Assembly: GCA_030268105.1 (NCBI GenBank)
Contig: BSDZ01000121.1
Coordinates: 58,212-122,211, forward strand
Direction: 5' to 3'
From: Volvox africanus
Lineage: Eukaryota > Chlorophyta > Chlorophyceae > Chlamydomonadales > Volvocaceae
DNA length: 64,000 nucleotides
The notes beneath the pieces were generated by a model. The model made no database searches. It was not told the DNA's origin and worked only from the letters and a program-made list of their open reading frames with translations. Made by a program: the position numbers and the translations under genes. This document shows, one piece after another, positions 1,805 to 24,100 of the stretch (its first letter is position 1; every line of letters starts with the position of its first letter).

Positions 1805-1884
1805 TGTTGTACGCTGGTTCGATCATCGTTCATACCAAAGTAGACCGCAATACATTCGAGCATTATGAAGCATGACATAATCAT
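1380..1884 (-). pseudogene. Captured gene fragment inside LTR2 element (proline-rich then FISLACGNKLLLYRY-like)
   Basis: On the minus strand the passenger reads as a PPPPP/AGGP-rich linker, then HHEVRTARFVYMDQFISLAC and GNKLLLYRYLMCG, then a charged and glycine/tryptophan-rich tail. In the right-hand copy (48643-49146) this is one open frame of 167 codons. In this copy a single extra G near 1590 splits it. The middle part resembles a beta-propeller strand of a WD-type protein by eye only; this is weak. The frame starts within LTR2 sequence, so the first residues are not native. Confidence 0.3.
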
Positions 1885-2615
1885 ATTAGCATGATATATT
1901 CGAGTATATCTAGCTAATCAGGCACGTCGCATTATCATCTACGACATCGCGCTGTCGGTCAACATGTTTGACTCGAGGCTGATATTAATGCGAGATCTAT
2001 CCGTTGGCATAATATTCCACGTAATAATACTTTAAATATTATTACCTCATCTGTGTCATAAACCATACGCGTATGCAAGAACGCGACGATCGTGATGGTT
2101 GGGTCGGCAACCGAATATCGATATTTGGACCGCATATTGCATGCGTTGCATCCATTAATATCACGGATTACGCGATATTCAGAATAGTGCTACGAAGGTA
2201 CTCACACTTGAGATCGGAATCCAGTGAGACCTGTACTGCACATCGGTATCACGGCGTGATAGATGCGAGGACGGCCGCCTAGAGACCGAAGTCGGCTCGA
2301 TGCTACTTTGGACCAAGTACTTGCATACTTAATGCTATCTAATTCACATACATACGTTTTACTCATTTATATTCGGCCTGAGCTATTCTAGCATATCATC
2401 TTCAGCCGGATGATGAACATTGCCCGCGGGGTCTGACGGCCGACTACCAATCTGTAACCAAAGACTATTGTAAGTTGGATCTTTCCTTGTTGTTGAGTCT
2501 TTCGCTCTCACTTTACTCGCATTGAATCACCTTACTGTTCGTAAGCACGGTACGCACTTAGCTAACATCCAGACGTGCAGATTCAGTGCATGATCGAGGA
2601 AGGAAGGATACAACA
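1805..2615 (+). repeat. LTR of family LTR2, copy ii
   Basis: TGTTGTACGC start and GGATACAACA end; aligns with copies i and iii. It is followed by AATTTGGTAGCGAGACGG, a degenerate primer-binding site. Confidence 0.88.
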
Positions 2616-3088
2616 AATTTGGTAGCGAGACGGTTCGACTCACGGCTGTCTCATCATTACTATTGGAGAGTAGATTCTCGTGCGAGCGAGCGGCGGCGAG
2701 GAGTATCACGGGATAACCTCGTCAGAAAACCGGTATTGTAATATTCTCTTTCCAAACTATTGATATAATATTTGTCCTTTCATACCAATCATATCTACGC
2801 TACCAGTGAAGTCTTAAATCCACAGAAGGGATTCCATCGCCATCATACTCGGAATTGTTTATCTGATAAGTTGAACATCTGGCAGAATCAGCTACTAAGA
2901 CTACATCAATTTGAAGGTTACAACGCGTTGGTGGGTTACATTACCATTCTCGTCGGAATTTACTCGTGCGTGAACGGTACGCGGAAGAAATTTCTAAGGT
3001 ATAGAAACCATCTCTCTCTACCCTTGCAAGATACTAATTAGCATATATGTCGGATAACCAGTATCAACGGACTACAGGGGGAGTGAAC
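2616..3088 (+). mobile_element. Second short internal region between LTR2 copies, different passenger
   Basis: Begins with the same leader as 1140-1312, then changes at CTACCAG into unrelated DNA. An open frame (2772-3041, 89 codons, no convincing ATG) includes SDKLNIWQNQLLRLHQFEG and ILVGIYSCVNGTRKK; no family was recognised. It ends ACAGGGGGAG, a polypurine-like run, just before an LTR1 fragment. In the duplicated copy a solo LTR1 interrupts this stretch after GGTTACATT. Confidence 0.5.
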
Positions 3089-3145
3089 TGTTGTACCTCT
3101 CCTTCGTGTTTGCTCATAAACATCTTCGCGTCTGAAGGCTTTCGA
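3089..3145 (-). repeat. LTR1 end fragment, inverted
   Basis: Starts TGTTGTACCTCTCCTTCG, which is the reverse complement of the LTR1 3' end. It is cut after 57 bases where LTR2 copy iii begins. Confidence 0.75.
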
Positions 3146-3960
3146 TGTTGTATGCGGGTTCGATCCCCACTTGCACCGAAGTAGACTGCATTATATTCGA
3201 GCATTACGAAGCATGATATAATCATATTAGCATGATATATTCGAGTATATCTAGCTAATCAGGCATATCACATTCTCATCTACGACATCGCGCTGTCGGT
3301 CAACATGTTTGACTCGATGCTGATAATTAATGCGCGATCTATCCGTTGGTATAATATTCCGCGTTATAATGCTTTGAATATTATTACCTCATCTGTGTCA
3401 TAAACCATACGCGTATGCAAGAATGCAACGCTAGCGATGGTTGGGTCGGCAACCGAATATCGATATTCGGACCTTCGCATATTGCATGCGTTGCATTCAT
3501 TAATATCACGGATTACGTGGTATTTAAAATAGTGCTATGAAGGTACTCACACTTGAGATCGAAATCCAGTGAGACCTGTACTGCACATTGGTATCGCGAC
3601 GTGATAGGTGCGAGGACGGCTGCCTAGAGACCGAAGTCGGCTTGACACTAATTTGGGTCAAGTACTCGTGTACTTAACTCGGTCTGATTCTGATATATAC
3701 GTTTTACTCATTTATTATCGGCCTGAGCTATTCCAGCATAGCATTCCCAGCCGGATGATGAACGCTGCCCGCGGGGTCTGACGGCAGACTCCTAATTTGC
3801 AGCTGAAGATCATTGTAAGTTGAATCTTTCCTTATTGATAAGCCTTCCGCTGTCACGTTGCTTGCACTGAAGTGTCTTACTGTTCGTAAGCACCATGCAC
3901 GTGTAGCTAATACTCAGACGTGCAGATTCAGTGCATGGTTGAAGAAGGAAGGATACAACA
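3146..3960 (+). repeat. LTR of family LTR2, copy iii (5' LTR of a B-type element)
   Basis: TGTTGTATGC start, GGATACAACA end, followed by AATTTGGTATCGAGACAGG, the best-preserved primer-binding site of the three. It contains the perfect 18-bp palindrome CCGAATATCGATATTCGG (3453-3470). Near its start GGGTTCGATCCCC resembles the B box of a Pol III promoter. Confidence 0.9.
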
Positions 3961-4430
3961 AATTTGGTATCGAGACAGGTTCGTTGCCTGACTGCCTAAT
4001 GATGCTTGATCGGAAGTAAGTTCTTTCTAGGACGACTGTTGACGATGGGCGACGTAGCCCACTAGACATTATCGCCGAAGAACTTGTCCACGCTATATCA
4101 GATACTGTTGCTTCCAAATTGTGATTGCTTTTATACCTTTGTAGTTTACTGCAATTGTGGTGTGAGCCTTCGCTCTGAGTTGCAGGTGAAACTTGTGGTC
4201 TGGCACCGCTCGCGATAGCTTCTGGTTACAACTTGCGTTCTAATCAGCTGGAGGCTTTGATTGCACGGACTACAGGGGCCATATCTACTCGAAGCCTGCA
4301 AGAGTATTGTCGGTGTGCTGACCAAATTGTTTGTACTCTTGTGCTAGATTCGTGTGAATCGCTTGCACACTTGCTTTAGAATTATGTGCATCGTTTATTG
4401 TCACGCAATTTGAATATATTGGTCAGTGTT
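3961..4430 (+). mobile_element. Leader of truncated B-type element
   Basis: Primer-binding site (TGGTATCGAGAC) and a leader matching 52056-52527. It holds a frame reading RRSPLDIIAEELVHA...ASKL then TGA, homologous to the short leader ORF of LTR1 elements, and a second segment reading LEALIARTTGAISTR, homologous to LATLIAQTTEIRTQ of LTR1 leaders. The element is cut at 4428-4434, just where gag would start, and joined to inverted element A. Confidence 0.7.
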
Positions 4431-4433
4431 CCA

Positions 4434-6266
4434 CCGGTGGCCGACACAATGTGGCCCAAATATTCCACCTGAGGCTGCGCCCAAAAGCATTTGGCGCGTT
4501 TAGCAAACAATTGCTCCCGCCTCATAACGTCGAGCACGAGCCGAAGATGCTCCAAATGCTCCTCGCGCGTCTTAGAATAAACCAAGATGTCATCCAGGTA
4601 GCAAACAACGAACCTGTCGATAAACGGCCTAAACATTCGGTCCATAACCGCCTGAAACGTTGCAGGGGCATTAGTCAAACCAAACGATAGGACCGTATAC
4701 TCAAAGTGACCGAAGGGCGTCCGAAAAGCGGTTTTCGGAATATCAGAGGCAGCGATGCGGATCTGATTATAGCCCTGTTGCAAGTCAATCGAGGAAAAAT
4801 AAGCCGATCCCTTCAGCTTATCCAACAGGTCGTCAACGCGTGGCAAAGGGTAGCGATTTTTCACCGTACTCGCATTCAACCCCCGGTAATCGATGCACAT
4901 GCGCAAGGTCCCATCCTTCTTACCGACAAACAAAATCGGTGCAGAATACAGGGATGTGCTGGGGCGTATCATACCCTTCGCGAGCAAATCCGTCACCTGG
5001 CGCTTTACCTCGTCCAGCTCCAATGGACTCAACCTGTACATTGGCCGGGCCGTAGGCTGTGCTCCAGGCATGAGAGGGATTGTGTGATCAACAGGACGCA
5101 TAGGTGGTAGGCCAGGGATATCTTTAAAGACGTCCTCATACTGCGACAGTAGGGCCTCAACCTCAGGATCCACAGAAATCTGCGCGGTGGTGGCACAACA
5201 GCCCACCCGCGGCCTCAAAAGCAGTCCGTGGGCACCCTTCCGTAACAAACGGACAGCTTCCTTACGCCCGACTAGCTCTGGTTCGATTTGCGCTGCCATT
5301 GCGGTCACAGCGAAATTAACCATAGGCACCGCCTCAGCTTCGCCCTCCTTTGGTGTGACATGTTCGAACGACAGGAAAGGTACCTTAATCGACAGAGTAC
5401 CCTTGTACATATGCAGGGTTGCGGTCTCCATGTCGATGCGCGTGCGGTACTGTCATAATGTCGAGGACCCCATTATGTACGGTGCAGTCTCTGCTAAGCC
5501 CTGCAGCACGTACGGCCGGGCCACAACACGCAAAGGGCCTATCGATAGGCTAAGGGTAATCCTGCCCACGATGGGATGCTTACCCCCGTCAGCAAGGGTA
5601 ACCTGTGGACAATCAGACGACTCTGGGGTCAACCCCAGCGCATTCACCTCTGCGACAGAGATGAAGTCGTCGCTGGCACCGGTGTCAACAAGTGCCTTCA
5701 GAGTACGGCCATTCAAACCGATCTGAACCACTGGGACATGGTTATCTGCGAGCGACTGCCCAGCAGATAACGTTAGGTGGGTCCGTAACCTACGGCACCC
5801 TCATCAGGAGCTTCGTACCAAACGTCAACCGAGTAGGATGTGCCTGGCCACGGAGCCAGCATACCCTCCCGATCCACACCGTTAAACAAAACGGTGCCCG
5901 GCTCGAACCGGTGGACACGCCGCATACCCCTTAACGATGCCTCTGCCTTGCGCCGACAGAAAGCGGGGAGTAATACACATGCGGCGGTGCCTGGATATTG
6001 ACGCCTACATCTCCTATAAACGGCCAACTGTTCCGACATCTCACGCAGAGACGAGGGGATGAACTTTTGTTCATCCACGTGGTTAGACAGATCGATAGAC
6101 GACAGGGGACGGCGAGGTGCAAACAAATTACACAACGGATCGAAGCAGAGAAGTCCCGTGCGTCCGTCAAGCGTGATGCGTCGCGCAATGACTCGCTCAA
6201 TGTGTCCAAGTACGCAAGGCAACAATGCCTTCACGGCTGGCCGTAAGGATGACCACCGACCACGCG
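4434..6266 (-). pseudogene. pol: Element A pol fragment: protease and reverse transcriptase
   Basis: The aspartic protease carries ALVDTGASDDF (DTGA motif) near 5670. RT follows in the 5431-4382 frame: residues about 150-330 hold the fingers ([19 protein letters not shown]), the first catalytic aspartate ([12 protein letters not shown], residue 215) and the YLDD box (residues 278-281). The frame is broken several times: a CGG to TGA change at 5453-5455 cuts protease from RT, and the pol N-terminal region (6435-5773) is offset from protease by indels. Sequence after IVSATGG is foreign (LTR2-element leader). In an intact relative this enzyme would copy the element's RNA in cytoplasmic particles; this copy cannot. 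Confidence 0.92.
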
Positions 6267-7547
6267 TTAGTTCAGAAATCCCGGGCGGTGCCCCCTCCAC
6301 AGGAACCCGGGCAAGGTCGGCTGAGGTACAAACGGCGGCAGTAACGGGCAATCCTTCGTAGGATGACTCTCCGCGCACCGTAGACAAACATTGGCCGCTT
6401 TCCGACGTTCGAACTCGGAATGATTGCAATTCCATTTTGGCATAAACGAGTCATCCGTGCGAGTCCGCTTCGCATTGGGGTCAGAGCGCTGTGCGGCTGC
6501 CGACGACGGCGCACCACCACGCTTCCTGCTCTTAGCCGGGTCCGAGCTCGGACCTGCTCCTCCTGACCCGCGGACACCCGAGCTAGCGCCCCCGTGCGCC
6601 TGGCGTTGCCGGTTGCTGCGTCGCGTCGCGGCAGTAGGTGTGGGGCGGGTCGCTCCGAGTTCCTGGTCGAGAGCTACAGCTTCCCCAAGCGGATCCTGCA
6701 CTTGCACGGCATTTGCACGAGGGGCAGACTTGACTTCTTCCTCACCGGCAAGGAGTCGTATCTCCGTACCCTTAGCAAAAGTGACCAAGGCATCATACGA
6801 CTTGATCGGCACCCCAGCCAAGTCAGTAGCGCACCATTTAGCCTAAAGGTTTGTCAGGCCTCGCTTAAACCAAAAGACACGCTCGGTTTCGGTGAGATCA
6901 GCAATGGGGGTCACAAGTGCTTCGAAGCGTGACTGGTACGCAGGTACATTTTCACCCCGACGCATGTGGTAGCTACCGGCTGCCAAAACCTTACGAGCCT
7001 CCACATCACGTGCTTGAACCTCAGTAGCGAACCGTGCGAGCAAAGCGGCGATCATCTCGTCAAAAGTATAGTCGCCCTGGGCGGTGGTCCATTCGCGATA
7101 CCAGTCCTTCGCTGAGCCCTCGAGGGTGTTACCAACGAAGAGACACCTGATACCATCATTATCGCCACCTTGAACAGCCTGGAGATACTTTTTAGCGTCA
7201 CGCACGTACGCACGAGTTGCATCGGCTATGCTAGGTCCTGGTGTCTTTTCAGTCAGCGAGATATTGAGCCTAGGAACGGGAATTGACAATCTCATCACCT
7301 CAGGGATGTCATCATGCCCTCGAGCTTGAGGTAATGGCAGAACCCTTGGTCCAGCAGTGTTGTCCATATTCGTATTAACTGCTGAATGCGGCACAATTAA
7401 GTGAGCAGGGGTCTGAAGGACAAAGGGCTCTTGAGTGGCTCGCGTGCCAACAGTCTCAAGACCTCTATCCGGCGCTCTAGCAGCCACAACAAAATCGGGT
7501 TGGCTAGCTAAGCTAGTGTGCGGCGTATCGTCACGTTCCACGGACAT
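6267..7547 (-). pseudogene. gag: Element A gag, broken
   Basis: Starts at ATG 7547 and follows element A2 and E gag closely. It has a retrotransposon capsid-like region (YLQAVQGGDNDGIRCLFVGN, then a DWY motif) and a C-terminal basic region ending in a zinc knuckle CLRCAESHPTKDC (C-x2-C-x3-H-x4-C). Around 6843 a change (AGCCTAAAGG against AGCCAAAAG in relatives) ends the first frame, which reopens from 6821. At the gag-pol boundary the TAG present in relatives is lost through a 7-base deletion, so gag runs on in a shifted frame to 6267. Confidence 0.9.
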
Positions 7548-7850
7548 GGAACACGAAGTGATACCCTAGGTTTGCGTAACAGAAGCCGACTTCTATCGCA
7601 AAGGCAAGAGTACAAAGCGATTCGGTGAGCCTACCGACAGTACTCTTGAGAAGATTCAGTAAACTCAGCAAGTACTTGCCCAGCTGAGTCCTGATCTCCG
7701 TAGTTTGGGCGATGAGAGTCGCCAACTGGTCCGGACGAAAGCCGGTCTCAGTCACCGCGGCAAGCAATGCCGGTGCACTGAGATTACCTGCGACTCAGAG
7801 CGTACACTTACACAACAAGTGCAGCAATCTAAGCAAAAGCAATTAAACAA

Positions 7851-7946
7851 TTACAAACCGGAAGCGGCGGCGTCCAAAACGGCGCGGCCTAGGTCTTCGG
7901 CAAAAGTATCTAGTGGTCCTCGTGGTTCGTCGCTGGAACTCGCCAT
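7851..7946 (-). CDS. Short leader ORF of element A (31 codons)
   Basis: ATG GCG AGT ... TTG TAA encodes a peptide containing GPLDTFAEDLGRAVLDA-like sequence. The same ORF is present in copies A2, E, F, C and the right-edge copy. Its second half matches a reading of the diverged LTR2 leader at amino-acid level. It may be a separate uORF or a first gag exon spliced at G|GTTTGT; see findings. Confidence 0.5.
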   Translation of the reverse strand: MASSSDEPRGPLDTFAEDLGRAVLDAAASGL

Positions 7947-8013
7947 AGAAAGAACCTACTTCCGATTAGACAAAGGGAGACAGTTAGGCAACGAACCTGT
8001 CTCGATACCAATT

Positions 8014-8845
8014 TGTTGTACCTCTCCTTCGTGTTTGCACATAAGTATCTGCGCGTCTGAAGGCTTTGGACACCGATGCGCGAGCACTTGCAAGTACAAC
8101 AAGGCAAGCGCGAGCAAACAGAGACAGCGGAAGACTTCAAGACAAGAAGAGATATAACTTACAGTCTTACAGATCGGTGCGGTGCAATGGACGTAATCGC
8201 CGTCAGCGCCGGAAGCAAGCAATCATCACGCGGCGGTGATAAGCGAAGTTTAGGCTTAGCTCGGGCTAAGTAGAGTAGCGTATAGCAATGATAATGTAGA
8301 ACACACGAGTGTTCTCCGGTGTCGAATATCTTATCTTGCTTAGCCGTCCTCGCATCTGTTATACTCGTAGCATCGCAATGCCGTACGATTCACACTAGGA
8401 GGCCGATCCTAAGTGTGACAACCCTACTGCGTATAGGCGATGTCCAAGCATAACAACGTATAAGCCTTTCCGGCATTCGCATGATGCAAGGGTCCGGATA
8501 ACAATATCCGGTTGCAGGGCATGCATCGCGACAAGTGCGGCGCTCTCAACGTGTGCTGTAATGAAGTAATATTATATCAAATAATATTACTTATCGTTTC
8601 GTAGCACGAGCATAATGCGCACTTCAATGATTCGGTATTTCATGCATGCTAGGCGGATTTGCCATGATGCGATGTTGCGATGGATAATGATGACATGCCA
8701 AATGCATATATAAATATATACGAATATATTTATATCATGCCAATTCATTCATATGCATTAATCGTTCATGCATTCATCAAGATAACACTTCGCCTCGTAG
8801 GGTCGCATCGACCTACATCGGCGGGAAATGAACCGTAGCACAACA
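8014..8845 (-). repeat. LTR1, 5' LTR of element A
   Basis: On the minus strand it begins TGTTGTGCTACGGTT and ends GGTACAACA, 832 bp. The next minus-strand bases are AATTGGTATCGAGACAGG, the primer-binding site. It contains the hairpin GTAATATTAT-loop-ATAATATTAC and paired AT-rich arms near TGCATATATAAAT. Confidence 0.95.
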
Positions 8846-9611
8846 GATCCTGCCCACGATGGGATGCTTACCCCCGTCAGCAAGGGTAACCTGTGGACAA
8901 TCATACGATTCTGGGGTCAACCCCAGCGCATTCACCTCTGCAGCAGAGATGAAGTCGTCGCTGGCACCGGTGTCAACGAGTGCCTTCAGGGTACGGCCAT
9001 TTAGACCGACCTGAATCACCGGGACACGGTTATCTACAAGCGACTGCCCAGCAGATCACGTTAGTGCTCTTTGGGCGGGTCCGTAACCACACGGAACCCT
9101 CATCAGGAGCTTCGTACCAAACGTCAACCGAGTAGGATGTGCCTGGCCACGGAGCCAGCATACCCTCCCGATCCACACCGTTAAACAAAACGGTGCCTGG
9201 CTCGAACCGGTGGACACGCCGCATACCCCTTAACGATGCCTCTGCCTTGCACCGACAGAAAGCGGGGAGTAATACACATGCGGCGGTGCCTGGATATTGA
9301 CGCCTACATCTCCTATAAACGGCCAACTGTTCCGAAATCTCACGCAGAGATGAGGGGATGAACAAAACCACGTGGTTAGACAGATCGATAGATGACAGGG
9401 GACGGCGTGGGGTAAACAGATTACACAGCGGATCGAAGCAGAGAAGTCCCGTGCGTCCGTCAAGCGTGACGTGTCGCGCAATGACTCGCTCGATGTGTCC
9501 AAGTACGCAAGGCAACAATGCCTTCATGGCTGGTCGTAAGGATGACCACCGACCACGTGTTAGTTCAGCAATCCCGGGTGGTGCCCCCTCCGCAGGAACC
9601 CGGGCAAACCC
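8846..9611 (-). CDS. pol: Element A2 pol N-terminal part, interrupted in protease
   Basis: Directly follows the gag TAG in the same frame: 28 codons (GFARVPAEGAPPGIAEL...) lead into 9527-9030, which is conserved in all LTR1 copies (LPCVLGHIERVIAR, FDPLCNLFTPRRPLSSIDL). It runs into a protease reading LVDTGASDDFIS in a shifted frame at 9019-8846. The frame breaks near 9060-9030. The sequence ends at IVGRI, where the LTR of element A begins. Confidence 0.85.
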
Positions 9612-10853
9612 CTATTCGGGCTTAGGGCCCAACGGCGGCAGCAACGGACAATCCTTGGTAGGATGGCTCTCCGTGCACTGTAGGCAAACATTGGCCGCTT
9701 TCTGACGTTCGAACTCGGAACGATTGCAATTCCATTTTGGCATCAACAGATCATCCGTGCGAGTCCGCTTTGCATCGGGGTCAGGGCGCTGTGCGGCTGC
9801 CGTCGACGGCGCGCCCCCACGTTTCCTGCTCTTAGCTGGGTCCGAGCTCGGACCTGCTCTTCCTGACCCGTGGACACCTGAGCTAGCGCCCCCGCGCGCC
9901 TTGCGCTGTCTGTTGCTGTGTCGCACCGTGACAACAGATGCAGGACGAGTAGCTCCAAGTTCCTGGTCCAGAGCCACAGCTTCCCCAAGCGGATCCTGTG
10001 CTTGCACAGCATTTGCACGAGGGGTAGATTTGACTTCTTCCTCACCGGCAAGGAGTCGTACCTCTGTCCCCCTAGCAAATGTTACCAAGGCGTCGTACGA
10101 CCTGAACGGCACCCCAGACAATTCAGTAGCGCACCATTTAGCCAAAAGTTTCGTTAGGCCTCGCTTAAACCAAAAGACACGCTCATTCTCGGTGAGGTCA
10201 GCGATGGGGGTCACTAGTGCTTCGAAGTGTGACTGGTATGCAGGTACATTTTCGCCCCGACGCATGTGATATGTACCGGCTGCCAAAACCTTGCGAGCCT
10301 CAACATCACGTGCGTGCACCTCAGTAGCAAACCGTGCGAGCAGAGCGGAAATCAACTCGTCAAACGTGTAGTCAATCCGGGCGTTGGTCCATTCGTCGTA
10401 CCAGTCCTTCGCCGCACCCTCGAGGGTGTTGCCAACGAAGAGACACCTGATACCATCATTATCGCCACCATGCACCGCCTGGAGATACTTCTTAGCATCG
10501 CGCACGTACGTACGAGTTGAATCGGCTATGGTTGGGCCGGGTGTCTTAAGGTTTTCATTCAGCGAGATTTTAAGCCTAGGTACGGGAATTGTCAATCTCA
10601 TCACCTCGGGAATGGCAGCATGCCCTTGCGTTTGAGGTAGAGGAAGACCCCATGGATCAGCAGCGTTGTCCATATTCGTATTAACTGCTGAACGCGGCAC
10701 AATTAAGTGGGCAGGGGTCTGAAGGACAAGAGGTTCTAGAGCAGCTCGCGTGCCAACAGTCTCAAGACCTCTATCCGTAGCTCTAGCAGCCACAACAAAT
10801 TCGGGTTGGCTTGCTAAGGTAGTAAGCGGCGTATCGTTGCGTCCCGCAGACAT
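9612..10853 (-). CDS. gag: Element A2 gag, intact
   Basis: 413 codons from ATG 10853 to TAG 9612-9614, uninterrupted. The N-terminal 90 residues are low in structure. Residues about 120-270 form the retrotransposon capsid-like domain (KKYLQAVHGGDNDGIRCLF, KDWYDEW, ENVPAYQSHFEALV, RVFWFKRGL). Then comes a basic, serine/glycine-rich nucleic-acid-binding stretch and the zinc knuckle CLQCTESHPTKDC near residues 392-404. Gag packages element RNA into virus-like particles in the cytoplasm. The terminal TAG is followed by GGG and by an open pol frame in phase, consistent with pol expression by stop readthrough. Confidence 0.95.
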   Translation of the reverse strand: MSAGRNDTPLTTLASQPEFVVAARATDRGLETVGTRAALEPLVLQTPAHLIVPRSAVNTNMDNAADPWGLPLPQTQGHAAIPEVMRLTIPVPRLKISLNENLKTPGPTIADSTRTYVRDAKKYLQAVHGGDNDGIRCLFVGNTLEGAAKDWYDEWTNARIDYTFDELISALLARFATEVHARDVEARKVLAAGTYHMRRGENVPAYQSHFEALVTPIADLTENERVFWFKRGLTKLLAKWCATELSGVPFRSYDALVTFARGTEVRLLAGEEEVKSTPRANAVQAQDPLGEAVALDQELGATRPASVVTVRHSNRQRKARGGASSGVHGSGRAGPSSDPAKSRKRGGAPSTAAAQRPDPDAKRTRTDDLLMPKWNCNRSEFERQKAANVCLQCTESHPTKDCPLLPPLGPKPE

Positions 10854-11162
10854 GGAACACGAGACAATACCCTAAGCTTGCATAGTAGAAGACGACTTCT
10901 ACCGCAAAGTCAAAGCTAGAGTACAAAACGATTCGGTGAGCCTACCGATAGTACTCTTGAGGATATTTAGCAAATTCAGCAAGCATTTGCCCAGCTGAGT
11001 TCGAATCTCCGTAGTTTGAGCGATAAGAATCTCCAACTGGTCCGGGCGCAAGCCGGTCTCAGTCCTTGCGGCAAGCAATGCCGGAGCACTGAGATTACCT
11101 GCGACTCAGAGCGTACACTTACACAACAAGTGCAGCAATTTAGACCAAAGCAATCAAAACAA

Positions 11163-11258
11163 TTACAAACTGGAAGCAGCGGCGTCCAACACAGCGCGGC
11201 CCAGGTCTTCGGTGAAGGTATCTAGCGGTCCACGTGGTTCATCGCTGGTACTCGCCAT
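11163..11258 (-). CDS. Short leader ORF of element A2
   Basis: 31 codons, ATG GCG AGT to TAA, same position between primer-binding site and gag as in the other LTR1 copies. Length is identical to that in A, E and F. Confidence 0.5.
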   Translation of the reverse strand: MASTSDEPRGPLDTFTEDLGRAVLDAAASSL

Positions 11259-11325
11259 GGAAAGAACCTACTTCCGATTTGACACAAAGAGACAGTTAGG
11301 CAACGAACCTGTCTCGATACCAATT

Positions 11326-12129
11326 TGTTGTACCTCTCCTTTGGGTTTGCTCATAAGTATCTGCGCGTCTGAAGACTTTTGATACCGATGCGCGAGCACT
11401 TGCAAGTACAGCAAGGCAATCGAGAGCAAACAAAGACAGCGGAAGACTTCAAGATGAAGAGAGATATAACTTACAATCTTACAGACCGAAGCAATGCAAT
11501 GGACGTGATCGCCGTCAGCGCCGGAAGTAAGCAATCATCACGCGGCGGTGACAAGCGAAGTTCAGGCTTAGCTCGGGCTAAGTATAAGAGCGATTAGCAA
11601 TAATAATGTTGAACACAGAAAAAAAATGTCTTATCTTGCTTAGCCGTCCTCGCATCTGTTATACTCGTAGCATCGCAATGCCGTACGATTCACACTAGGA
11701 GGCCGATCCTAAGTGTGACAACCCTACTGCGTATAGGTGATGTTCATGTATAACAACCGATAAGCCTTTCCAGCATTCGCATGATGCAAGGGTCCGAATA
11801 ACGATATTCGGTTGCAAGGCATGTATTGCGACGAGTGCGGCGTTCCCGACGTACGCTACAATGAAGTAATATTATATCAAATAATATTACTTATCGTTCC
11901 ATAGCACGAGCATAATGCGCGCTTTGATTATTCATGCATGTTAGGCGGATCAGCCATGATGCGATGTCGCAGTGTATAATGGTAACATGCCAAACATATA
12001 TAAATGTATGCAAATACATTTATGTCATGCAAGTTCATTCATATGCATCGATCATTCATCAAGTTAGCTCATCGCCTTGTAGCGTCGCATTGACCTACGC
12101 ATTGGCGGGAAATGAACCGTAGCACAACA
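11326..12129 (-). repeat. LTR1, 5' LTR of element A2
   Basis: Minus-strand TGTTGTGCTACGGTT start at 12129 and GGTACAACA end at 11326, 804 bp, followed by the primer-binding site AATTGGTATCGAGACAGG. It is somewhat diverged from the other LTR1 copies in the middle. Confidence 0.95.
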
Positions 12130-12917
12130 TATTGCACCAGGTTCACGTGGCCACGTCGCGTTTTCGTCACTGAGTTCCACTGGTTGCGGTTGCAGAGAGT
12201 CGTGGATGTACCACCGGTCCTTGTGTTTTCGTACCTTGTGATTGCATGACCTGTGAGGTGTACGAGGAAGCCCCAGTTGCGTGCGTGTTCTGGCAGTTGG
12301 TGTAGTACGCTGCTTAACGTCACATTGGGTTTTATTTCCTGTCCACTCCCTATGGAGGCAACATGCAGGTGTGCGGAGTCATTTCTTTGCTGTGCAGTTC
12401 GCACCGGCACGTTGTAGCGTAGGTACGGATTGATTGCCAGCGTTGAGAAGTTGCCTGTGTTTTGGTTGTGGGTTAGTCGCCATGTGGCGGCTGCATTGTG
12501 GAGTTCCGGGTCAGCCATGTGTTGCAGCATTATATGACAGTATTGCAGTACGTGCTGTGGGTCGATGTATGGTCCCCGTAGTAGGTTGTTTATGGTGTGG
12601 ATCATGCAGAGCTCTTTCTGCTGTTGCTCGTGGTAAAGGGTGTCATCTGGGTTGTGCGGGTTTGTCATTATCGGCCATGTGACTTGTTTTGATGGGGCCC
12701 CGGGCCCTGTTAGCCGCCACACTCGTGTGTTGCTAAGGGGATGGGGTCGCTCGGTTCGCATGGTTTCATCTTGTGGGCCCACACATTGGGTGCTTTCCGT
12801 TCCTTCAGGGTGTCCCTCTATCCCTGGAGCGGAGTCTCTATCCCAACAGGCAATCATTATCAGTGTAACGATGAGGATTATTGTGGCACCAAATATCGTG
12901 TTCTGTGGTATCGCCAA
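12130..12917 (-). pseudogene. Josephin-like cysteine protease domain with N-terminal membrane anchor, C-terminus cut by LTR
   Basis: The frame is open from about 12983. It has a hydrophobic span (ATIILIVTLIMIACW), a polar spacer of about 70 residues, and then a Josephin (peptidase C86) pattern. That pattern consists of YHEQQQKELCMIHTINNLLR with the presumed catalytic Cys, GNFSTLAINPYLRYN matching the family's GFFS-x-QV-x2-AL segment, and WGFLVHLTGHAITRYEN with the presumed His. A CNRNQWNSV segment follows where the third active-site residue is expected. Josephins are deubiquitinases. Sequence after GHVNLVQ is LTR1 of element A2, so the native end is lost. The start overlaps the end of the upstream ORF in another frame, suggesting one original polyprotein. 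Assignment is by motif only. Confidence 0.55.
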
Positions 12918-12961
12918 GCCGGCTATCAGATAGATGTGTATCAGCCAGCTTGCATGTCCCT

Positions 12962-13702
12962 TTAGCCCTTCAGGCCTTTACCAATTGCGGGGATACTGAT
13001 CGACAGAATGGAGGCCGTTGGGGCTGCTGTGGCCAGCTGTACACATAGTGTGACCAGTGTGGCTGCTGACACCATTATCTGCCTAGTCGCCGATGGGTGC
13101 TGACCTGCCCACTTGATTGTTTCAGCAGCATAGATTGCGCAGGCGAGAGCAAGGTCTCTTGCTACGGGTACGGCGCTGGCTGCTATTCGTGTAGTGAAGT
13201 GTCGTAAAACCCAAATCAGTCCAACTGTTAGTAATGTTAAATGGATGGCTAAGTCCAGTGGTCTCAGTGCTACTGCACAGGCGAGGGGCACTGACAGCAT
13301 AGCCGCAAGTAGGATCGTGTTGCCTGTCTGTTGCATGGATCTCCCTTTGCTTCGGTTCCACTGTCTTGCTGCTCTATTGACTTTGTAGAGTGCATACGTT
13401 ACCCCAAGGCCGGCAATGATACTGTACCCAATGAGGATCGTAATTTCGAGATCGTACAGCAGTGCTTTGATGGTATGGGAAATTAGGTGCCCACCTGCGC
13501 GCATTACATCCCCTGGCAGGTGCACCCCAGTCAGTGTGCTTCTTCCCCGCATAAGATAAGGCAGAAAGGCTTTCCGGATGCCATGTGATGCGATCCATGG
13601 GCTAGCCAATCCAAGCATCGTCCCTGCAGTCAAAGATGGCGAGTTCTGGTGTGTGTAATGCACTTGTGGGGCATTCACTGTACGACAAAGGTTGTCCAGC
13701 AT
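12962..13702 (-). CDS. Multi-pass membrane segment of the Josephin locus
   Basis: 246 codons. An extracellular-looking N-terminal 85 residues precede a span at LEITILIGYSIIAGLGVTYA followed by a basic stop-transfer stretch (NRAARQWNRSKGR). At least three more hydrophobic stretches follow (AAMLSVPLACAVAL, LAIHLTLLTVGLIWVL, IMVSAATLVTLCVQLA). No enzyme motif was seen and no family recognised. The ATG follows an in-frame TGA immediately. Upstream codons back to the first ORF are in the same frame and open except for two TGAs, so this is probably the C-terminal part of a longer glycoprotein-like chain. Confidence 0.5.
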   Translation of the reverse strand: MLDNLCRTVNAPQVHYTHQNSPSLTAGTMLGLASPWIASHGIRKAFLPYLMRGRSTLTGVHLPGDVMRAGGHLISHTIKALLYDLEITILIGYSIIAGLGVTYALYKVNRAARQWNRSKGRSMQQTGNTILLAAMLSVPLACAVALRPLDLAIHLTLLTVGLIWVLRHFTTRIAASAVPVARDLALACAIYAAETIKWAGQHPSATRQIMVSAATLVTLCVQLATAAPTASILSISIPAIGKGLKG

Positions 13703-13792
13703 TCAACCAGCAACGTTCACACCTCCTTGGGCTGTGACCTTGATGTCAGGTGGTTGTTTGATGGATCTCCTTAGATGTCCCCATAATCCTAT

Positions 13793-14488
13793 TCATTGCT
13801 TATGGTGGGCTTCGTTGGTTACCAGGTCGTTCGCCTGCAAGTTTCTTAGGTCTTCCACGTCCTTGCCTTCGTAGTTGCGGCATTTTCCAGAGACCATTCT
13901 AGTGTTGCAATTTGTGATTGCAATGATGTATTTTTCTGTTAGGTGTATACAGTCAGAAGCTGCTCCTCGAGAAGGGTAGTCTGTTCCAGGTGTCCTTCTG
14001 TAGGTTCTGTTTGTAACGTATCTTAGAGAATTATCAGGTCTGTGGAATGCTTTTTCACAGACTTCGCCATCTGCTGGGCAAGAGTTGCTCTGGCTGTGGT
14101 CCTCCTTCAGACCCATAGCCTGGTCGTCACGAGCTGACTCTGAGAAGTAGGGATATGCATTTACGGCCTTTTGCTTGGTCTCAGTTGGTGGTGAAGCCTG
14201 GGCTTCCCTGATTTGAATAATTGGCAGCATCCAGTCGTGACTTATAATGATGTTGAAATTAAATTGTTTGGTGCGTTCTTTTCGTGACCCCTCCGGCAAT
14301 CGCGTCCCACATGTGGCACGTTCCTGCACGTTCGTCGATTGACAAGGGGGGGGGTGACAGGAAAACACGGGTTCCACCGCTGCCGGAGCCAGGCTGTCAC
14401 AGAACGCTGTTATCAGCTTGTAGAGTGTTAGGCATAACAGAACGCGGCAGATTGCAGTCTTTCGCCTCACCTTTTGCTGACTTACCAT
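13793..14488 (-). CDS. Secreted cysteine-containing ectodomain ORF
   Basis: 231 codons from an ATG at 14488. Residues about 10-29 form a signal peptide (KTAICRVLLCLTLYKLITAF). The rest is a polar, cysteine-containing ectodomain with an NRT N-glycosylation sequon and paired cysteines (SCHPPPCQ, CPADGEVCEKAF, CNTRMVSGKC). It stops at TGA 13793-13795, but the frame reopens for 29 codons to a second TGA and then becomes the 246-codon membrane ORF. Together they look like a type I glycoprotein with a membrane anchor. The origin could be an envelope-like gene of an element or an integrated algal virus, or a host gene. The ATG is itself followed by GTAAGT, so a splice donor there cannot be ruled out. 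A run of nine C lies in the N-terminal part. Confidence 0.45.
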   Translation of the reverse strand: MVSQQKVRRKTAICRVLLCLTLYKLITAFCDSLAPAAVEPVFSCHPPPCQSTNVQERATCGTRLPEGSRKERTKQFNFNIIISHDWMLPIIQIREAQASPPTETKQKAVNAYPYFSESARDDQAMGLKEDHSQSNSCPADGEVCEKAFHRPDNSLRYVTNRTYRRTPGTDYPSRGAASDCIHLTEKYIIAITNCNTRMVSGKCRNYEGKDVEDLRNLQANDLVTNEAHHKQ

Positions 14489-14705
14489 TTTTAAATTTCA
14501 GCAGCTCGCCTTGTTGTTATTGGAAGCTTTTATGTTATATTACTCAAAAACTAGTTTATTAACAAATACTCCATCCTTGCGACCCTGCTTACAAACTCGA
14601 CGAGGAAAAAACAATTTGTAATTCGTGATATTGCTATATACGCAAATAATAATGTCAGGGCGGAGCTTCTCAGTCATCAAAACGCTTCACATACATATTG
14701 TGTGT
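14489..14705. other. Spacer between Josephin locus and PAN gene
   Basis: 217 AT-rich bases with no recognisable element. It should hold the 3' end signals of the PAN gene and any promoter of the downstream locus; neither can be pinned down by eye. Confidence 0.4.
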
Positions 14706-15121: not shown

Positions 15122-18100
15122 CTGCATCTGTATGTACATGTAAGCGGGTGGTCGTGCATAGGGACCAAATCCCAATTGGAAATCGTTAGCTGGAGTTTAA
15201 TCCAAGCTGAGCAAGCAATTCATGGATCTAGCTTTCAGATACATACAGGTACAGTGAGACCCATCGCAGTAATATGCACTGGTGGTGAAAGATGGATGTC
15301 TGCCCACTCCAAATAATCACCAGCCATCGATCTGCAGCAGGTGATGAACGAATCAACAAACCCTAAAACCCTAAGCCAGCATAACTGGCCTCAGATGAAC
15401 TTCTCGTGCCTAAACATCACCTGTTTAAACATCTTGTGTTTCCCAATTTACCTGGTGATGGTAGTGATGGTGATGGGGGTGGTGGTGATGGAGGAGGTGG
15501 TGATGGGGGTCCACTTGCCTGCGACCAGCAGTGAGGGAATGCACCAGCCAGAAAAATAGTAAGGCAGGATGGTGTACCATTGCACGTGCTTCATTCTGTG
15601 CACCGACCATGCATGTGAGGAATACCCAGTATTATTAGGCAGCCGCCTCACGGCCATCAGTTGCACGATGATATTAATTTCAGTTGATAACGTAATCAAC
15701 TGGCTAGGTATATAATTCTGGATCATGATAGCCTGCAAATTAAGGCTGTCCTATAATATGGCGGCACACTAAACCTATAAATACACACTAAAAAATATAT
15801 ATATATATAGACAACTAGAGACATGTGAGCGAGGCGGCGGTTGGAATAATAGTTGTGATGTCGTTTCAGCAACCACCTACGATGACATAGACGGGTCACT
15901 CAAACAGACAATTATGAGCAACCTAATGATTCCCAACTACCACATACAAACCCTTACACCGATGGGGGTGGTGGTGGTGAGTGTTACATATTACATACCA
16001 CAAGGAGCAATTATCTGTTGATGCAAACAACTGTGCAGCGTTAGGCAGGTAGGTGGAAAGGTTGGGTATGCGGTATACATAGAATAGGAAAGTGGGTATG
16101 AAGATACCCACCCTGAAGCAGACTTTGTCCACATATGTGCTTGTATTTGTAGGTCCACAAACGCCAGTCAGTGGGTTAAGCTTCAAGTAACAGTAGTTGC
16201 CATCTGTGTGAACAAAGAACTCGCATCTTGAGTCTTGACTGCATGCATTACTGCAACTCTGTAGACTGATGTTTGTGGCAAAGGAAGGACACGCTTTGGC
16301 GATGTCACCCACGTGGTCTCCTTTTACGTCATAATCTGCAGCACATTGGTACTGGCCACCTGCATCGATCCACACACACATCAAGAGCGGAGGGCATACA
16401 ATCTCAAAGGCACGACATTTGGCTCTTCAGAATTTATCTCAGGACACAACCAACATACATTATACATCCGAGGAAAAATAATGATCCCATATTTCATCGG
16501 CCCAAATTGAAGTTGCTGTGGTGAAGTCAGTATGGGGCTGGGTGGCACCTGTATACATGAGGATTATGATATCCATCGTCATCATAGTGACTTGCTTGCA
16601 AGCCCACTGTGATAGGAGATTTCTATTGGACGTCACTGAACCTCTGCTGTGTGGCATCCACCACTCACCGCCTAATGATGAATAAATGCGCGTAAACCTT
16701 TACCCCCTTTACATCCTCGGGGCCCAGCTGTTTATCAAAACTGCTACAAATAAGATCAACATTGGGACCCCAGGGGCCAGGGAAAGAATGCTGCACCCAC
16801 CTTCACACTTATTATTCCAGTCAGCACACATGATACGCCAAACACACATCATTTTGTGTCTTCAAATTAGTGCAGAGTTGCTTGAGGAGGTATAGAGTTG
16901 TAGCCCTCTCCCCAAACCACCATACAGAGTGTGTAGATGCATGCCCATCAACATGCAGCTGCTGATTGAACTTATCCTATCTTGTGCGCGACCCCCGACC
17001 TATCTACCTACCATGCGTACTTTCCACCCAGGCCGTCCCTACCCTGCTGGCTCTATCTGGATCCCTGCAACACCAGCCTTTGATGACCTTAACTCCCTGA
17101 CCTATCCCTTGACCTATTTTGACCTCGATTGATCTCTTGATTTTGATGAATAGCTTCGTTCCTATACCATGGCCTGTACATACCATAGTTTGGGCGCACG
17201 AAGCAAAGTACATCCACGTAGTTTGGGCTGTAGTTATTGCTTCCAGCGGTTCCATTAAGAAACGAATACTTAAGATAGCACTTGCGGTCAAGAGTTCGCA
17301 CAGAAAAGGTACACCTGTAGGAATGATCAATTTGCAGTTGCAAATGAAATGTACACCCAGTTGCATGCATGCATGTATGCTTTATGCATGAACCATATGT
17401 ATGCATGGGATACATGTACAATGCACTGCATGACATATGTATATACGTACTTTATAATGGACCATGCTCTAATAACAAGAAAGAGCTCACCAGAAAGAGC
17501 TTACATCAGGATTAGATGTCCTAATCATGATCACGATACTACACTTACACATTACACCGCATTGCATAGTATACACATACTTCATGCGCGCGCATACACA
17601 CACACACACACACACAAGGCATACTAATACGTGACATACAAGAATGAATGAATGATGCACCTTCAGGGCATTCTTTTAAACATTGTCGAGACATTTTATT
17701 TGTTTGGTCCTCCACATATGTTTATATACATATATACATGTATACGTGTATATATAAATATATATACATACCTAGTATTCGCGCCCTGTCACTCAAGCGA
17801 CATTAGATGATGATGCAAATAAATTGTGCAGATGAATGCATGACCAGTTCAGGAAAGCATGCATGCCAGCTATGGAACTACATCTGCTAAGCGTAATACG
17901 TAACGACTGTCGTGCATGCACGATGCATATACATACTCATGATAAGGCAGCGAGCATCATATGTTATACCTATATACCTACATGGGCTCATTGTAACACT
18001 CCTGGCGACAAGCGAGATAGTCGACTGTTTGGTTAATGATTCGAATGTCCTTTCCAAGGAAGTCAATTTTAGCGTAGCAGCCCCAAGGCAGAGCTGGTGC

Positions 18101-21100
18101 TACAGGCGGTGATGGTGGTGGTGGTGATGCCAGAAGCGGTTTAGGAGGTGGTTGAGGCCGCGGTAAAGGAAGCTGTGGTGGAGGTGGTGATGGTGGCTTC
18201 GGTGATGGGGGTGGTGGTGATGGGGGTGGTGGTGATGTGGGAGGTGGTGATGGGGGTCCACTTGCCTGCGACCAGCATTGATGGAATGCACCAGCCAGGA
18301 AAATAGTAAGGAAGGATGGTGTACCATTGCACGTGCTTCATTCCGTGCACCGATCATGCATGTGAGGAATACCCAGTATTATTAGGCAGCCGCCTCACGG
18401 CCATCAGTTGCACGATGATATTAATTTCAGTTGATAACGTAATCAACTGGCTAGGTACATTATTCTAAATCACAACAACCTGCAAAGTAAGGTGGTGCTT
18501 AGTAGCTGTCCAGTAATATGGCGGCACACAAAACAAATTAACACGCACTCAATAAAGAATATATAGACGATCAAAAACACGTGAGCGAGGCGGCAGTCGG
18601 AATAACGAAGGCCGCCATGTGGATGAAGGTTGCCACGGCCGCCGGATGCATGAGAATCGGCGACAGACTGGTGAAAACAGCCCCAAATGAATGTCGTACA
18701 GTATAAATAATCTGTACATAGGCACTACAGCGCAATGCCAGAATTCATGAGGCCTTTTTAAGCGACCACCTACGATGACATAGACGGGTCACTCAAACAG
18801 ACAATTATGAGCAACCTAATGATTCCCAACTACCACATACAAACCCTTACACCGATGGGGGTGGTGGTGGTGAGTGTTACATATTACATACCACAAGGAG
18901 CAATTATCTGTTGATGCAAACAACTGTGCAGCGTTAGGCAGGTAGGTGGAAAGGTTGGGTATGCGGTATACATAGAATAGGAAAGTGGGTATGAAGATAC
19001 CCACCCTGAAGCAGACTTTGTCCACATATGTGCTTGTATTTGTAGGTCCACAAACGCCAGTCAGTGGGTTAAGCTTCAAGTAACAGTAGTTGCCATCTTT
19101 GTGAACAAAGAACTCGCATCTTGAGTCTTGACTGCATGCATTACTGCAACTCTGTAGACTGATGTTTGTGGCAAAGGAAGGACACGCTTTGGCGATGTCA
19201 CCCACGTGGTCTCCTTTTACGTCATAATCTGCAGCACATTGGTACTGGCCACCTGCATCCATCCACACACACATCAAGAGCGGAGGGCATACAATCTCAA
19301 AGGCACGACATTTGGCTCTTCAGAATTTATCTCAGGACACAACCAACATACATTATACATCCGAGGAAAAATAATGATCCCATATTTCATCGGCCCAAAT
19401 TGAAGTTGCTGTGGTGAAGTCAGTATGGGGCTGGGTGGCACCTGTATACATGAGGATTATGATATCCATCGTCATCATAGTGACTTGCTTGCAAGCCCAC
19501 TGTGATAGGAGATTTCTATTGGACGTCACTGAACCTCTGCTGTGTGGCATCCACCACTCACCGCCTAATGATGAATAAATGCGCGTAAACCTTTACCCCC
19601 TTTACATCCTCGGGGCCCAGCTGTTTATCAAAACTGCTACAAATAAGATCAACATTGGGACCCCAGGGGCCAGGGAAAGAATGCTGCACCCACCTTCACA
19701 CTTATTATTCCAGTCAGCACACATGATACGCCAAACACACATCATTTTGTGTCTTCAAATTAGTGCAGAGTTGCTTGAGGAGGTATAGAGTTGTAGCCCT
19801 CTCCCCAAACCACCATACAGAGTGTGTAGATGCATGCCCATCAACATGCAGCTGCTGATTGAACTTATCCTATCTTGTGCGCGACCCCCGACCTATCTAC
19901 CTACCATGCGTACTTTCCACCCAGGCCGTCCCTACCCTGCTGGCTCTATCTGGATCCCTGCAACACCAGCCTTTGATGACCTTAACTCCCTGACCTATCC
20001 CTTGACCTATTTTGACCTCGATTGATCTCTTGATTTTGATGAATAGCTTCGTTCCTATACCATGGCCTGTACATACCATAGTTTGGGCGCACGAAGCAAA
20101 GTACATCCACGTAGTTTGGGCTGTAGTTATTGCTTCCAGCGGTTCCATTAAGAAACGAATACTTAAGATAGCACTTGCGGTCAAGAGTTCGCACAGAAAA
20201 GGTACACCTGTAGGAATGATCAATTTGCAGTTGCAAATGAAATGTACACCCAGTTGCATGCATGCATGTATGCTTTATGCATGAACCATATGTATGCATG
20301 GGATACATGTACAATGCACTGCATGACATATGTATATACGTACTTTATAATGGACCATGCTCTAATAACAAGAAAGAGCTCACCAGAAAGAGCTTACATC
20401 AGGATTAGATGTCCTAATCATGATCACGATACTACACTTACACATTACACCGCATTGCATAGTATACACATACTTCATGCGCGCGCATACACACACACAC
20501 ACACACACAAGGCATACTAATACGTGACATACAAGAATGAATGAATGATGCACCTTCAGGGCATTCTTTTAAACATTGTCGAGACATTTTATTTGTTTGG
20601 TCCTCCACATATGTTTATATACATATATACATGTATACGTGTATATATAAATATATATACATACCTAGTATTCGCGCCCTGTCACTCAAGCGACATTAGA
20701 TGATGATGCAAATAAATTGTGCAGATGAATGCATGACCAGTTCAGGAAAGCATGCATGCCAGCTATGGAACTACATCTGCTAAGCGTAATACGTAACGAC
20801 TGTCGTGCATGCACGATGCATATACATACTCATGATAAGGCAGCGAGCATCATATGTTATACCTATATACCTACATGGGCTCATTGTAACACTCCTGGCG
20901 ACAAGCGAGATAGTCGACTGTTTGGTTAATGATTCGAATGTCCTTTCCAAGGAAGTCAATTTTAGCGTAGCAGCCCCAAGGCAGAGCTGGTGCTACAGGC
21001 GGTGATGGTGGTGGTGGTGATGCCAGAAGCGGTTTAGGAGGTGGTTGAGGCCGCGGTAAAGGAAGCTGTGGTGGAGGTGGTGATGGTGGCTTCGGTGATG

Positions 21101-24100
21101 GGGGTGGTGGTGATGGGGGTGGTGGTGATGTGGGAGGTGGTGATGGGGGTCCACTTGCCTGCGACCAGCATTGATGGAATGCACCAGCCAGGAAAATAGT
21201 AAGGAAGGATGGTGTACCATTGCACGTGCTTCATTCCGTGCACCGATCATGCATGTGAGGAATACCCAGTATTATTAGGCAGCCGCCTCACGGCCATCAG
21301 TTGCACGATGATATTAATTTCAGTTGATAACGTAATCAACTGGCTAGGTACATTATTCTAAATCACAACAACCTGCAAAGTAAGGTGGTGCTTAGTAGCT
21401 GTCCAGTAATATGGCGGCACACAAAACAAATTAACACGCACTCAATAAAGAATATATAGACGATCAAAAACACGTGAGCGAGGCGGCAGTCGGAATAACG
21501 AAGGCCGCCATGTGGATGAAGGTTGCCACGGCCGCCGGATGCATGAGAATCGGCGACAGACTGGTGAAAACAGCCCCAAATGAATGTCGTACAGTATAAA
21601 TAATCTGTACATAGGCACTACAGCGCAATGCCAGAATTCATGAGGCCTTTTTAAGCGACCACCTACGATGACATAGACGGGTCACTCAAACAGACAATTA
21701 TGAGCAACCTAATGATTCCCAACTACCACATACAAACCCTTACACCGATGGGGGTGGTGGTGGTGAGTGTTACATATTACATACCACAAGGAGCAATTAT
21801 CTGTTGATGCAAACAACTGTGCAGCGTTAGGCAGGTAGGTGGAAAGGTTGGGTATGCGGTATACATAGAATAGGAAAGTGGGTATGAAGATACCCACCCT
21901 GAAGCAGACTTTGTCCACATATGTGCTTGTATTTGTAGGTCCACAAACGCCAGTCAGTGGGTTAAGCTTCAAGTAACAGTAGTTGCCATCTGTGTGAACA
22001 AAGAACTCGCATCTTGAGTCTTGACTGCATGCATTACTGCAACTCTGTAGACTGATGTTTGTGGCAAAGGAAGGACACGCTTTGGCGATGTCACCCACGT
22101 GGTCTCCTTTTACGTCATAATCTGCAGCACATTGGTACTGGCCACCTGCATCCATCCACACACACATCAAGAGCGGAGGGCATACAATCTCAAAGGCACG
22201 ACATTTGGCTCTTCAGAATTTATCTCAGGACACAACCAACATACATTATACATCCGAGGAAAAATAATGATCCCATATTTCATCGGCCCAAATTGAAGTT
22301 GCTGTGGTGAAGTCAGTATGGGGCTGGGTGGCACCTGTATACATGAGGATTATGATATCCATCGTCATCATAGTGACTTGCTTGCAAGCCCACTGTGATA
22401 GGAGATTTCTATTGGACGTCACTGAACCTCTGCTGTGTGGCATCCACCACTCACCGCCTAATGATGAATAAATGCGCGTAAACCTTTACCCCCTTTACAT
22501 CCTCGGGGCCCAGCTGTTTATCAAAACTGCTACAAATAAGATCAACATTGGGACCCCAGGGGCCAGGGAAAGAATGCTGCACCCACCTTCACACTTATTA
22601 TTCCAGTCAGCACACATGATACGCCAAACACACATCATTTTGTGTCTTCAAATTAGTGCAGAGTTGCTTGAGGAGGTATAGAGTTGTAGCCCTCTCCCCA
22701 AACCACCATACAGAGTGTGTAGATGCATGCCCATCAACATGCAGCTGCTGATTGAACTTATCCTATCTTGTGCGCGACCCCCGACCTATCTACCTACCAT
22801 GCGTACTTTCCACCCAGGCCGTCCCTACCCTGCTGGCTCTATCTGGATCCCTGCAACACCAGCCTTTGATGACCTTAACTCCCTGACCTATCCCTTGACC
22901 TATTTTGACCTCGATTGATCTCTTGATTTTGATGAATAGCTTCGTTCCTATACCATGGCCTGTACATACCATAGTTTGGGCGCACGAAGCAAAGTACATC
23001 CACGTAGTTTGGGCTGTAGTTATTGCTTCCAGCGGTTCCATTAAGAAACGAATACTTAAGATAGCACTTGCGGTCAAGAGTTCGCACAGAAAAGGTACAC
23101 CTGTAGGAATGATCAATTTGCAGTTGCAAATGAAATGTACACCCAGTTGCATGCATGCATGTATGCTTTATGCATGAACCATATGTATGCATGGGATACA
23201 TGTACAATGCACTGCATGACATATGTATATACGTACTTTATAATGGACCATGCTCTAATAACAAGAAAGAGCTCACCAGAAAGAGCTTACATCAGGATTA
23301 GATGTCCTAATCATGATCACGATACTACACTTACACATTACACCGCATTGCATAGTATACACATACTTCATGCGCGCGCATACACACACACACACACACA
23401 CAAGGCATACTAATACGTGACATACAAGAATGAATGAATGATGCACCTTCAGGGCATTCTTTTAAACATTGTCGAGACATTTTATTTGTTTGGTCCTCCA
23501 CATATGTTTATATACATATATACATGTATACGTGTATATATAAATATATATACATACCTAGTATTCGCGCCCTGTCACTCAAGCGACATTAGATGATGAT
23601 GCAAATAAATTGTGCAGATGAATGCATGACCAGTTCAGGAAAGCATGCATGCCAGCTATGGAACTACATCTGCTAAGCGTAATACGTAACGACTGTCGTG
23701 CATGCACGATGCATATACATACTCATGATAAGGCAGCGAGCATCATATGTTATACCTATATACCTACATGGGCTCATTGTAACACTCCTGGCGACAAGCG
23801 AGATAGTCGACTGTTTGGTTAATGATTCGAATGTCCTTTCCAAGGAAGTCAATTTTAGCGTAGCAGCCCCAAGGCAGAGCTGGTGCTACAGGCGGTGATG
23901 GTGGTGGTGGTGATGCCAGAAGCGGTTTAGGAGGTGGTTGAGGCCGCGGTAAAGGAAGCTGTGGTGGAGGTGGTGATGGTGGCTTCGGTGATGGGGGTGG
24001 TGGTGATGGGGGTGGTGGTGATGTGGGAGGTGGTGATGGGGGTCCACTTGCCTGCGACCAGCATTGATGGAATGCACCAGCCAGGAAAATAGTAAGGAAG

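Follow-up and report, generated by a model that had tools for sequence, protein, structure and literature searches.

Reading frames at the locus

We analysed a 64,000-nucleotide stretch of Volvox africanus DNA (the window, to which all positions refer), in which three adjacent minus-strand reading frames form the decayed front of a long interspersed nuclear element (LINE) whose polyprotein contains a Josephin domain. The frames lie at 13793-14488 (231 residues), 12962-13702 (246 residues) and 12069-12917 (282 residues from the start codon, 302 from stop to stop), and the first two share a frame from which the third is shifted, as claimed in an original prediction made from the sequence. The overlap it placed between the second and third frames exists when these are read stop to stop, but not when they are read from start codons (12962 versus 12917). 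The basic then hydrophobic N-terminus, the several hydrophobic segments and the motifs LCMIHTINNLLR and GHAITRY on which the prediction drew are all present in the window frames. As parts of a polyprotein, all on the minus strand, the first piece (13793..14488) has a start ATG, a basic N-terminus, a hydrophobic, signal-anchor-like stretch and a variable region that runs to a stop codon, the second (12962..13702) is hydrophobic and probably a multi-pass membrane region, and the third (12131..12917) carries the last hydrophobic segment and the Josephin domain.

These pieces belong to a minus-strand fragment at 12130..14538 that comprises the first ~2.4 kb of a Dualen/RandI-type non-LTR (long terminal repeat) retrotransposon, with the 5′ end of the element at 14538, and that is 91.1% identical over 2436 columns to a copy on contig C75 (C-numbers denote contigs with other copies, P-numbers related proteins). 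A search of the window's own genome (141 Mb, 126 contigs) with the protein of frame 3 gave 91 match rows, the window itself included and many rows being pieces of one copy. The whole query is matched at 98-100% identity in four other copies and residues 56-282 at 97% in one; many further copies are 83-92% identical, mostly up to residue 227, the break point of the window's frame 3, some of them within open frames of up to 2257 residues. The same genome gave 74 match rows to chlorophyll a/b-binding proteins, which among 14 control genomes were also matched in a cyanobacterium alone, as expected of a photosynthetic host; with the Dualen-type LINEs this makes a green alga most likely. Because so many matching copies exist elsewhere in the genome, frame 3 is not a chance open reading frame.

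The window copy is nevertheless a dead, broken 5′ end. Indels that change the frame relative to the C75 copy lie near 14456, 14354, 14247, 12969 and 12236, the last a 2-bp insertion within the Josephin domain, and stop codons separate frames 1 and 2. The LTR of a Ty3-type retrotransposon (11326..12129, minus strand, beginning TGTTGTGCTACGG) starts at 12129, directly at the end of the LINE fragment, and interrupts the LINE inside the C-terminal half of the Josephin domain. The last 55 residues of frame 3 are therefore out-of-frame and LTR sequence, and the true C-terminal half lies in another frame: the N-terminal half runs from about 12623 in the frame of 12069-12917 and the C-terminal half occupies 12131-12243 in the frame of 12067-12243, with the active-site codons at 12606-12608 (Cys), 12246-12248 (His) and 12199-12201 (Asp), all on the minus strand.

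The parent element

In all five copies compared (the window, two C75 loci, C20 and C5) the element starts with the same first base, ATAACATAAAAGC.., after unrelated upstream flanks, and both 3′ ends that were read terminate in repeated ATT (ATTATTATT..); no target-site duplication was obvious in the two copies read at both ends. Better-preserved copies hold one frame of about 3.5 thousand codons. The C20 copy, 10,740 bases long, has a frame at nt 42-10610 with a single stop, located in the reverse transcriptase (RT), and its 1836 codons from the ATG to this first stop pass uninterrupted across all three window parts, so these are indeed one polyprotein.

Pfam was run on five pieces of the C75:540 kb copy, which has frame breaks of its own, and returned Josephin (9e-11), Exo_endo_phos (1e-6; 28.9 bits against a cut-off of 24.5), RVT_1 (2e-26) and RNase_H (2e-16). 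The second of these, the apurinic/apyrimidinic-type endonuclease (APE), lies upstream of RT and in the same frame in the C75b and C20 copies; RT is of the non-LTR type (best PDB matches R2, then LINE-1), and RNase H is located downstream of it. The C-terminal 240 residues conserve C-x2-C..H..C, RPD and E/K positions in our copy and in 20 of 129 relatives, a pattern that we read, by motif, as a putative restriction-like endonuclease (RLE). The order is thus hydrophobic N-terminus, multi-pass region, Josephin (peptidase family C86), APE, RT, PCIF1-like domain, RNase H and RLE-like C-terminus.

By domain order and 3′ tail, the locus is the broken front of a Dualen/RandI-type LINE. A single open reading frame, APE before RT, RNase H, an (ATT)n tail, an algal host and, as far as the motif indicates, an RLE-like C-terminus are shared with that group, which is mentioned in passages of PMC4640811, PMC3636483 and PMC8226300. 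The relevant passages give APE and RLE in one LINE as the mark of the group (PMC3636483, PMC4640811), tabulate (ATT)n tails for green-algal RandI LINEs (PMC3747384) and place Dualen families in all Chlamydomonas-related species compared (PMC8226300).

Between RT and RNase H, at L014:7157-7951 (+), lies a PCIF1_WW-like stretch that scores 28.5 bits in the C75:540 kb copy, below the cut-off of 31.1, and PF12237 is precomputed for 15 of the 120 relatives listed. PCIF1 is an mRNA-cap adenosine methyltransferase, and the LINE may, judging from this stretch, carry a cap-modification-like domain.

The Josephin domain

The third part of the locus is a Josephin domain, as had been proposed, on the combined evidence of Pfam, a PDB profile match and fold comparison of open copies. 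The window's own pieces fall below the gathering cut-off of PF02099 (26 bits), the broken frame scoring 22.6 bits and the second piece 12.7. An open copy scores 42-47 bits, and all nine open copies of alignment A1 match the family (best E 1.5e-12; first row 46.7 bits). The catalytic Cys and His are invariant in these nine copies and are kept in the relatives P0121, P0004, P0025 and P0048. Structure prediction, the check suggested for a papain-like fold, gave a Josephin fold by Foldseek comparison of an AlphaFold2 model built from alignment A3 (six of the element's own copies and four relatives), with 17-22% identity to solved Josephin/JOS structures in the structural alignments. The domain is therefore real and lies within a retrotransposon polyprotein, and its deubiquitinase activity is predicted from homology and the modelled fold.

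Selection among the copies was gauged by pairwise median ratios of nonsynonymous to synonymous substitution (dN/dS), which are descriptive values since broken copies were counted in and the pairs depend on one another. The ratio is 0.25 for Josephin (25 copies, 291 pairs), beside 0.19 for RT (3 copies), 0.26 for RNase H (6), 0.35 for RLE (8) and 0.40 for APE (17); it reaches 0.64 in the membrane region (19 copies), 0.76 in the N-terminal region (5 copies, 10 pairs), and 0.93 (18 copies) and 0.56 (19 copies) in the first and second linkers. When the nine copies that cover five neighbouring regions are compared by site bootstrap, Josephin (0.23, 0.13-0.37) lies below the first linker (0.94, 0.45-2.55) and the second (0.56, 0.40-0.79). 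These values suggest that selection maintained the protease in the lineages from which the copies arose.

Relatives and the protease slot

Our RT search returned 257 proteins at E ≤ 0.001, 120 of them listed, and a second, alignment-based search returned 10, nine of them new, giving 129 relatives. A Josephin domain precedes APE in four. Pleodorina starrii P0004 (PLESTB_001761100), which covers 69% of the RT query at 68% identity, has Josephin, APE and RT, its Josephin at 27.4 bits against the cut-off of 26; P0121, from a metagenome, has a Pfam Josephin match and is 83% identical to the Volvox element over 99% of the query; P0025 and P0048 match a profile of the LINE copies' Josephin at 3e-10 and 5e-8, and Pfam Josephin is absent from both at E up to 0.1. 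A search for relatives of the Josephin stretch among 277 candidates of about 392-1248 residues, a range that excluded P0004 and P0121, found none at E ≤ 0.001.

The start of APE could be recognised in 15 of the 129 relatives, and at least 350 residues precede it in six, namely the four Josephin carriers and P0044 and P0078, both from Cymbomonas. Instead of Josephin, the latter two have an Ulp1/adenain-like His..Asp..Gln..Cys motif before APE, found by pattern match. No Pfam match to such a family appears in these stretches at E up to 0.1, the PDB matches of P0044 are adenoviral proteinases alone (E 0.23 or weaker) and three such Ulp1-like stretches align poorly, so that the motif is a weak indication of an Ulp1-like domain in P0044 and P0078. 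Two further proteins, P0008 and P0122, are labelled Ulp1-like in the tree by eye only. P0122, a distantly related metagenome protein of 2944 residues, also combines PF00856, the SET domain, with RT and RNase H, and PHD fingers occur in some other relatives.

For the RT tree, 88 rows of at least 220 residues were chosen by hand (our own copy, P0001-P0085, P0121, P0122 and three outgroups); it is a quick tree with long branches, all rows beside our own copy being database matches, and the clade put to the test was chosen with the data already in view. An approximately unbiased test on it rejects the Josephin carriers as one clade (p 0.0004), so that one simple inheritance of Josephin is not supported, and P0048 groups near P0044 (SH-aLRT 89). 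The pattern points either to an exchange of proteases or to an ancient presence followed by losses, two histories that the thin sampling of N-termini does not separate.

The hydrophobic region before the protease is also unevenly distributed. By hydropathy the C20 copy has seven hydrophobic segments, one near the start and six before Josephin, and six occur both in P0004 and in P0121, where one is a far N-terminal Ala/Val stretch; residues 292-585 of C20 are 50% identical to P0121. None precede Josephin in P0025 and P0048. From this distribution the membrane region seems to have been added in the volvocine-type lineage, provided that the other proteins are complete. The glycoprotein-like ectodomain of the original prediction was not borne out: a Pfam search of the three frames, run to E 10, found no glycoprotein family, and the N-terminal region that contains the supposed ectodomain is, as its dN/dS indicates, weakly constrained.

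Function of the Josephin domain

The domain order, the homology, the predicted fold, the conserved Cys and His (with Asp in most copies) and the signs of purifying selection are directly supported. On these grounds we propose that the Josephin domain would strip ubiquitin off the protein/RNA particle of the element itself or off host factors close by, that the N-terminal spans would hold it near a membrane, and that ubiquitin removal could protect the element from ubiquitin-dependent destruction. We put the probability that the domain acts in this way, on its own particle or host targets and near a membrane, at roughly 0.5.

Several observations weigh against this proposal, beside the uneven spans, the missing Pfam matches and the rejected single clade described above. 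Across the 25 Josephin copies there are 12 in-frame stops, and the catalytic Asp, present in 23, is Glu in two. Solved Josephins are matched weakly at the sequence level (E 6e-4) and moderately in fold (TM 0.45 and rmsd 5.9 in the best Foldseek row), and an AlphaFold2 model from nine near-identical copies reached a pLDDT of only 42 and was not used. The bootstrap interval of Josephin touches those of APE (0.48, 0.29-0.81) and the late membrane region (0.52, 0.35-0.82), the membrane segments are called by hydropathy alone, and the RLE is assigned by motif only, its region having no Pfam match and a best PDB match that is unrelated (E 0.61).

Alternatively, though we consider it clearly less probable, Josephin could be a processing protease that, in the manner of viral papain-like proteases, separates the membrane, APE, RT and endonuclease parts of the ~3.5-thousand-residue polyprotein from one another. 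Several enzymes do share one huge frame, the fast-evolving second linker (dN/dS 0.56) lies after the protease and before APE, and the Ulp1/adenain-like motif in P0044 and P0078, with the adenoviral PDB matches of P0044, recalls adenain, which processes viral precursors. However, no conserved double-glycine cleavage site was noticed in the frame by eye, characterised Josephins act on ubiquitin linkages, and cleavage is not known to be required in LINEs that encode RT and endonuclease in a single ORF. That the domain was kept mainly as a binding or structural module, without important catalysis, appears improbable: the two copies with Glu in place of Asp and the low Pfam score in Pleodorina are in its favour, but Cys and His are kept in the nine open copies and in all four Josephin-carrying relatives, and Josephin and RT have similar dN/dS values. 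The original view of a secretory, envelope-like polyprotein, from a retroelement or from an algal virus integrated in the genome, has in its favour the hydrophobic N-terminus, probable spans and protease domain in one frame, and the deubiquitinases that large DNA viruses often carry. It was rejected as hardly credible, since APE, RT and RNase H follow further along the one frame in the C20 copy and mark a LINE, the 5′ end and (ATT)n tail are of LINE type, the adjoining LTR belongs to a repeated Ty3-type insertion, and, like the glycoprotein families, viral structural families were absent from the Pfam search of the three frames, viral libraries lying outside that search.

Returning to ubiquitin removal, a broader and decidedly tentative extension is that deconjugation of ubiquitin or ubiquitin-like proteins is a core but replaceable function of Dualen elements, whose lineages would fill one position with either Josephin or an Ulp1/adenain-like protease unrelated to it, the volvocine-type lineage having added a membrane anchor to make a membrane-tethered deubiquitinase.

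Relation to known elements

A cysteine protease in these elements is reportedly not new: Kojima and Fujiwara are said to have described one in 2005, when naming Dualen. This N-terminal trait of Dualen/RandI LINEs is matched here by the Josephin domain (9e-11). Features that may set the Volvox element apart from the described Dualens are the identity of the protease as Josephin, the long hydrophobic multi-pass region before it and the PCIF1-like domain between RT and RNase H. The Josephin identity in a LINE, the membrane region and the possible protease exchange were not found in the open-access literature and are, as far as we found, new; one paper met there concerns retrocopies of ataxin-3 in primates. 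The domain has the fold, the Cys-His-Asn/Asp order and the N-terminal motif of the ataxin-3/Josephin deubiquitinases (C86, PF02099), but differs in lying inside a retrotransposon polyprotein, at the low identity given above and with its activity predicted. NeSL and Utopia LINEs (PMC4640811) likewise pair an RLE with an N-terminal cysteine protease of ubiquitin-family type in their protein, but the protease is of the Ulp1 family, APE is absent and the clade is another. The original remark that no described protein of this layout was known does not quite hold, since P0004, named ubiquitinyl hydrolase 1 in the database, already unites hydrophobic segments, Josephin, APE and RT in one protein; its record ends after RT, however, and its N-terminal region hardly aligns to that of the Volvox element.

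In practical terms, a volvocine database protein named ubiquitinyl hydrolase is a retrotransposon protein. A LINE whose deubiquitinase-type domain is conserved and selected would allow one to ask directly whether retrotransposons, much like viruses, resist being destroyed by way of ubiquitin. Should the protease slot truly switch between Josephin and Ulp1-like domains, the selected trait would be the chemistry, that is, removing ubiquitin-like tags or cutting after them.

The Ty3-type insertion and neighbouring features

A Ty3-type element inserted into this LINE copy later. Eight other long matches in the window have their start no more than about 11 bases from the 12129 point, TGTTGTGCTACGG (the first 13 bases of the LTR) follows differing flanks in seven of eight printed junctions, and three of the matches end at the base matching 11325-11326. 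No continuation of the window's own LINE copy beyond the LTR was found within the window or near the expected distance in C118. On C49, C117, C118:33 kb and C120, sister copies take up the LINE again where it had broken off. A gap of ~10.2 kb precedes this in the C49 copy, with six query bases (95-100) on both sides by match coordinates, a repeat that fits a 5-bp target duplication plus a shared first LTR base. Adjoining the LTR, and outside the LINE, is the gag open reading frame of a Ty3-type element (9612..10853, minus strand; Pfam Ty3_capsid 6e-6 and Retrotrans_gag 3e-4, both below cut-off).

A break in another LINE copy lies at C5:2999854-3000684 (L015/L016), where an insert of ~830 bases, the size of a solo LTR, interrupts the LINE at a different point and the LINE flanks overlap by 9 bases. 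Elsewhere in the window, 343-12129 and 35714-64000 are densely packed with nested Ty3-type elements and LTRs, which lie in both orientations and include two or more LTR types, and in 15864-29848 a 2893-bp unit is repeated in tandem about five times, with 92-100% identity between the blocks compared.
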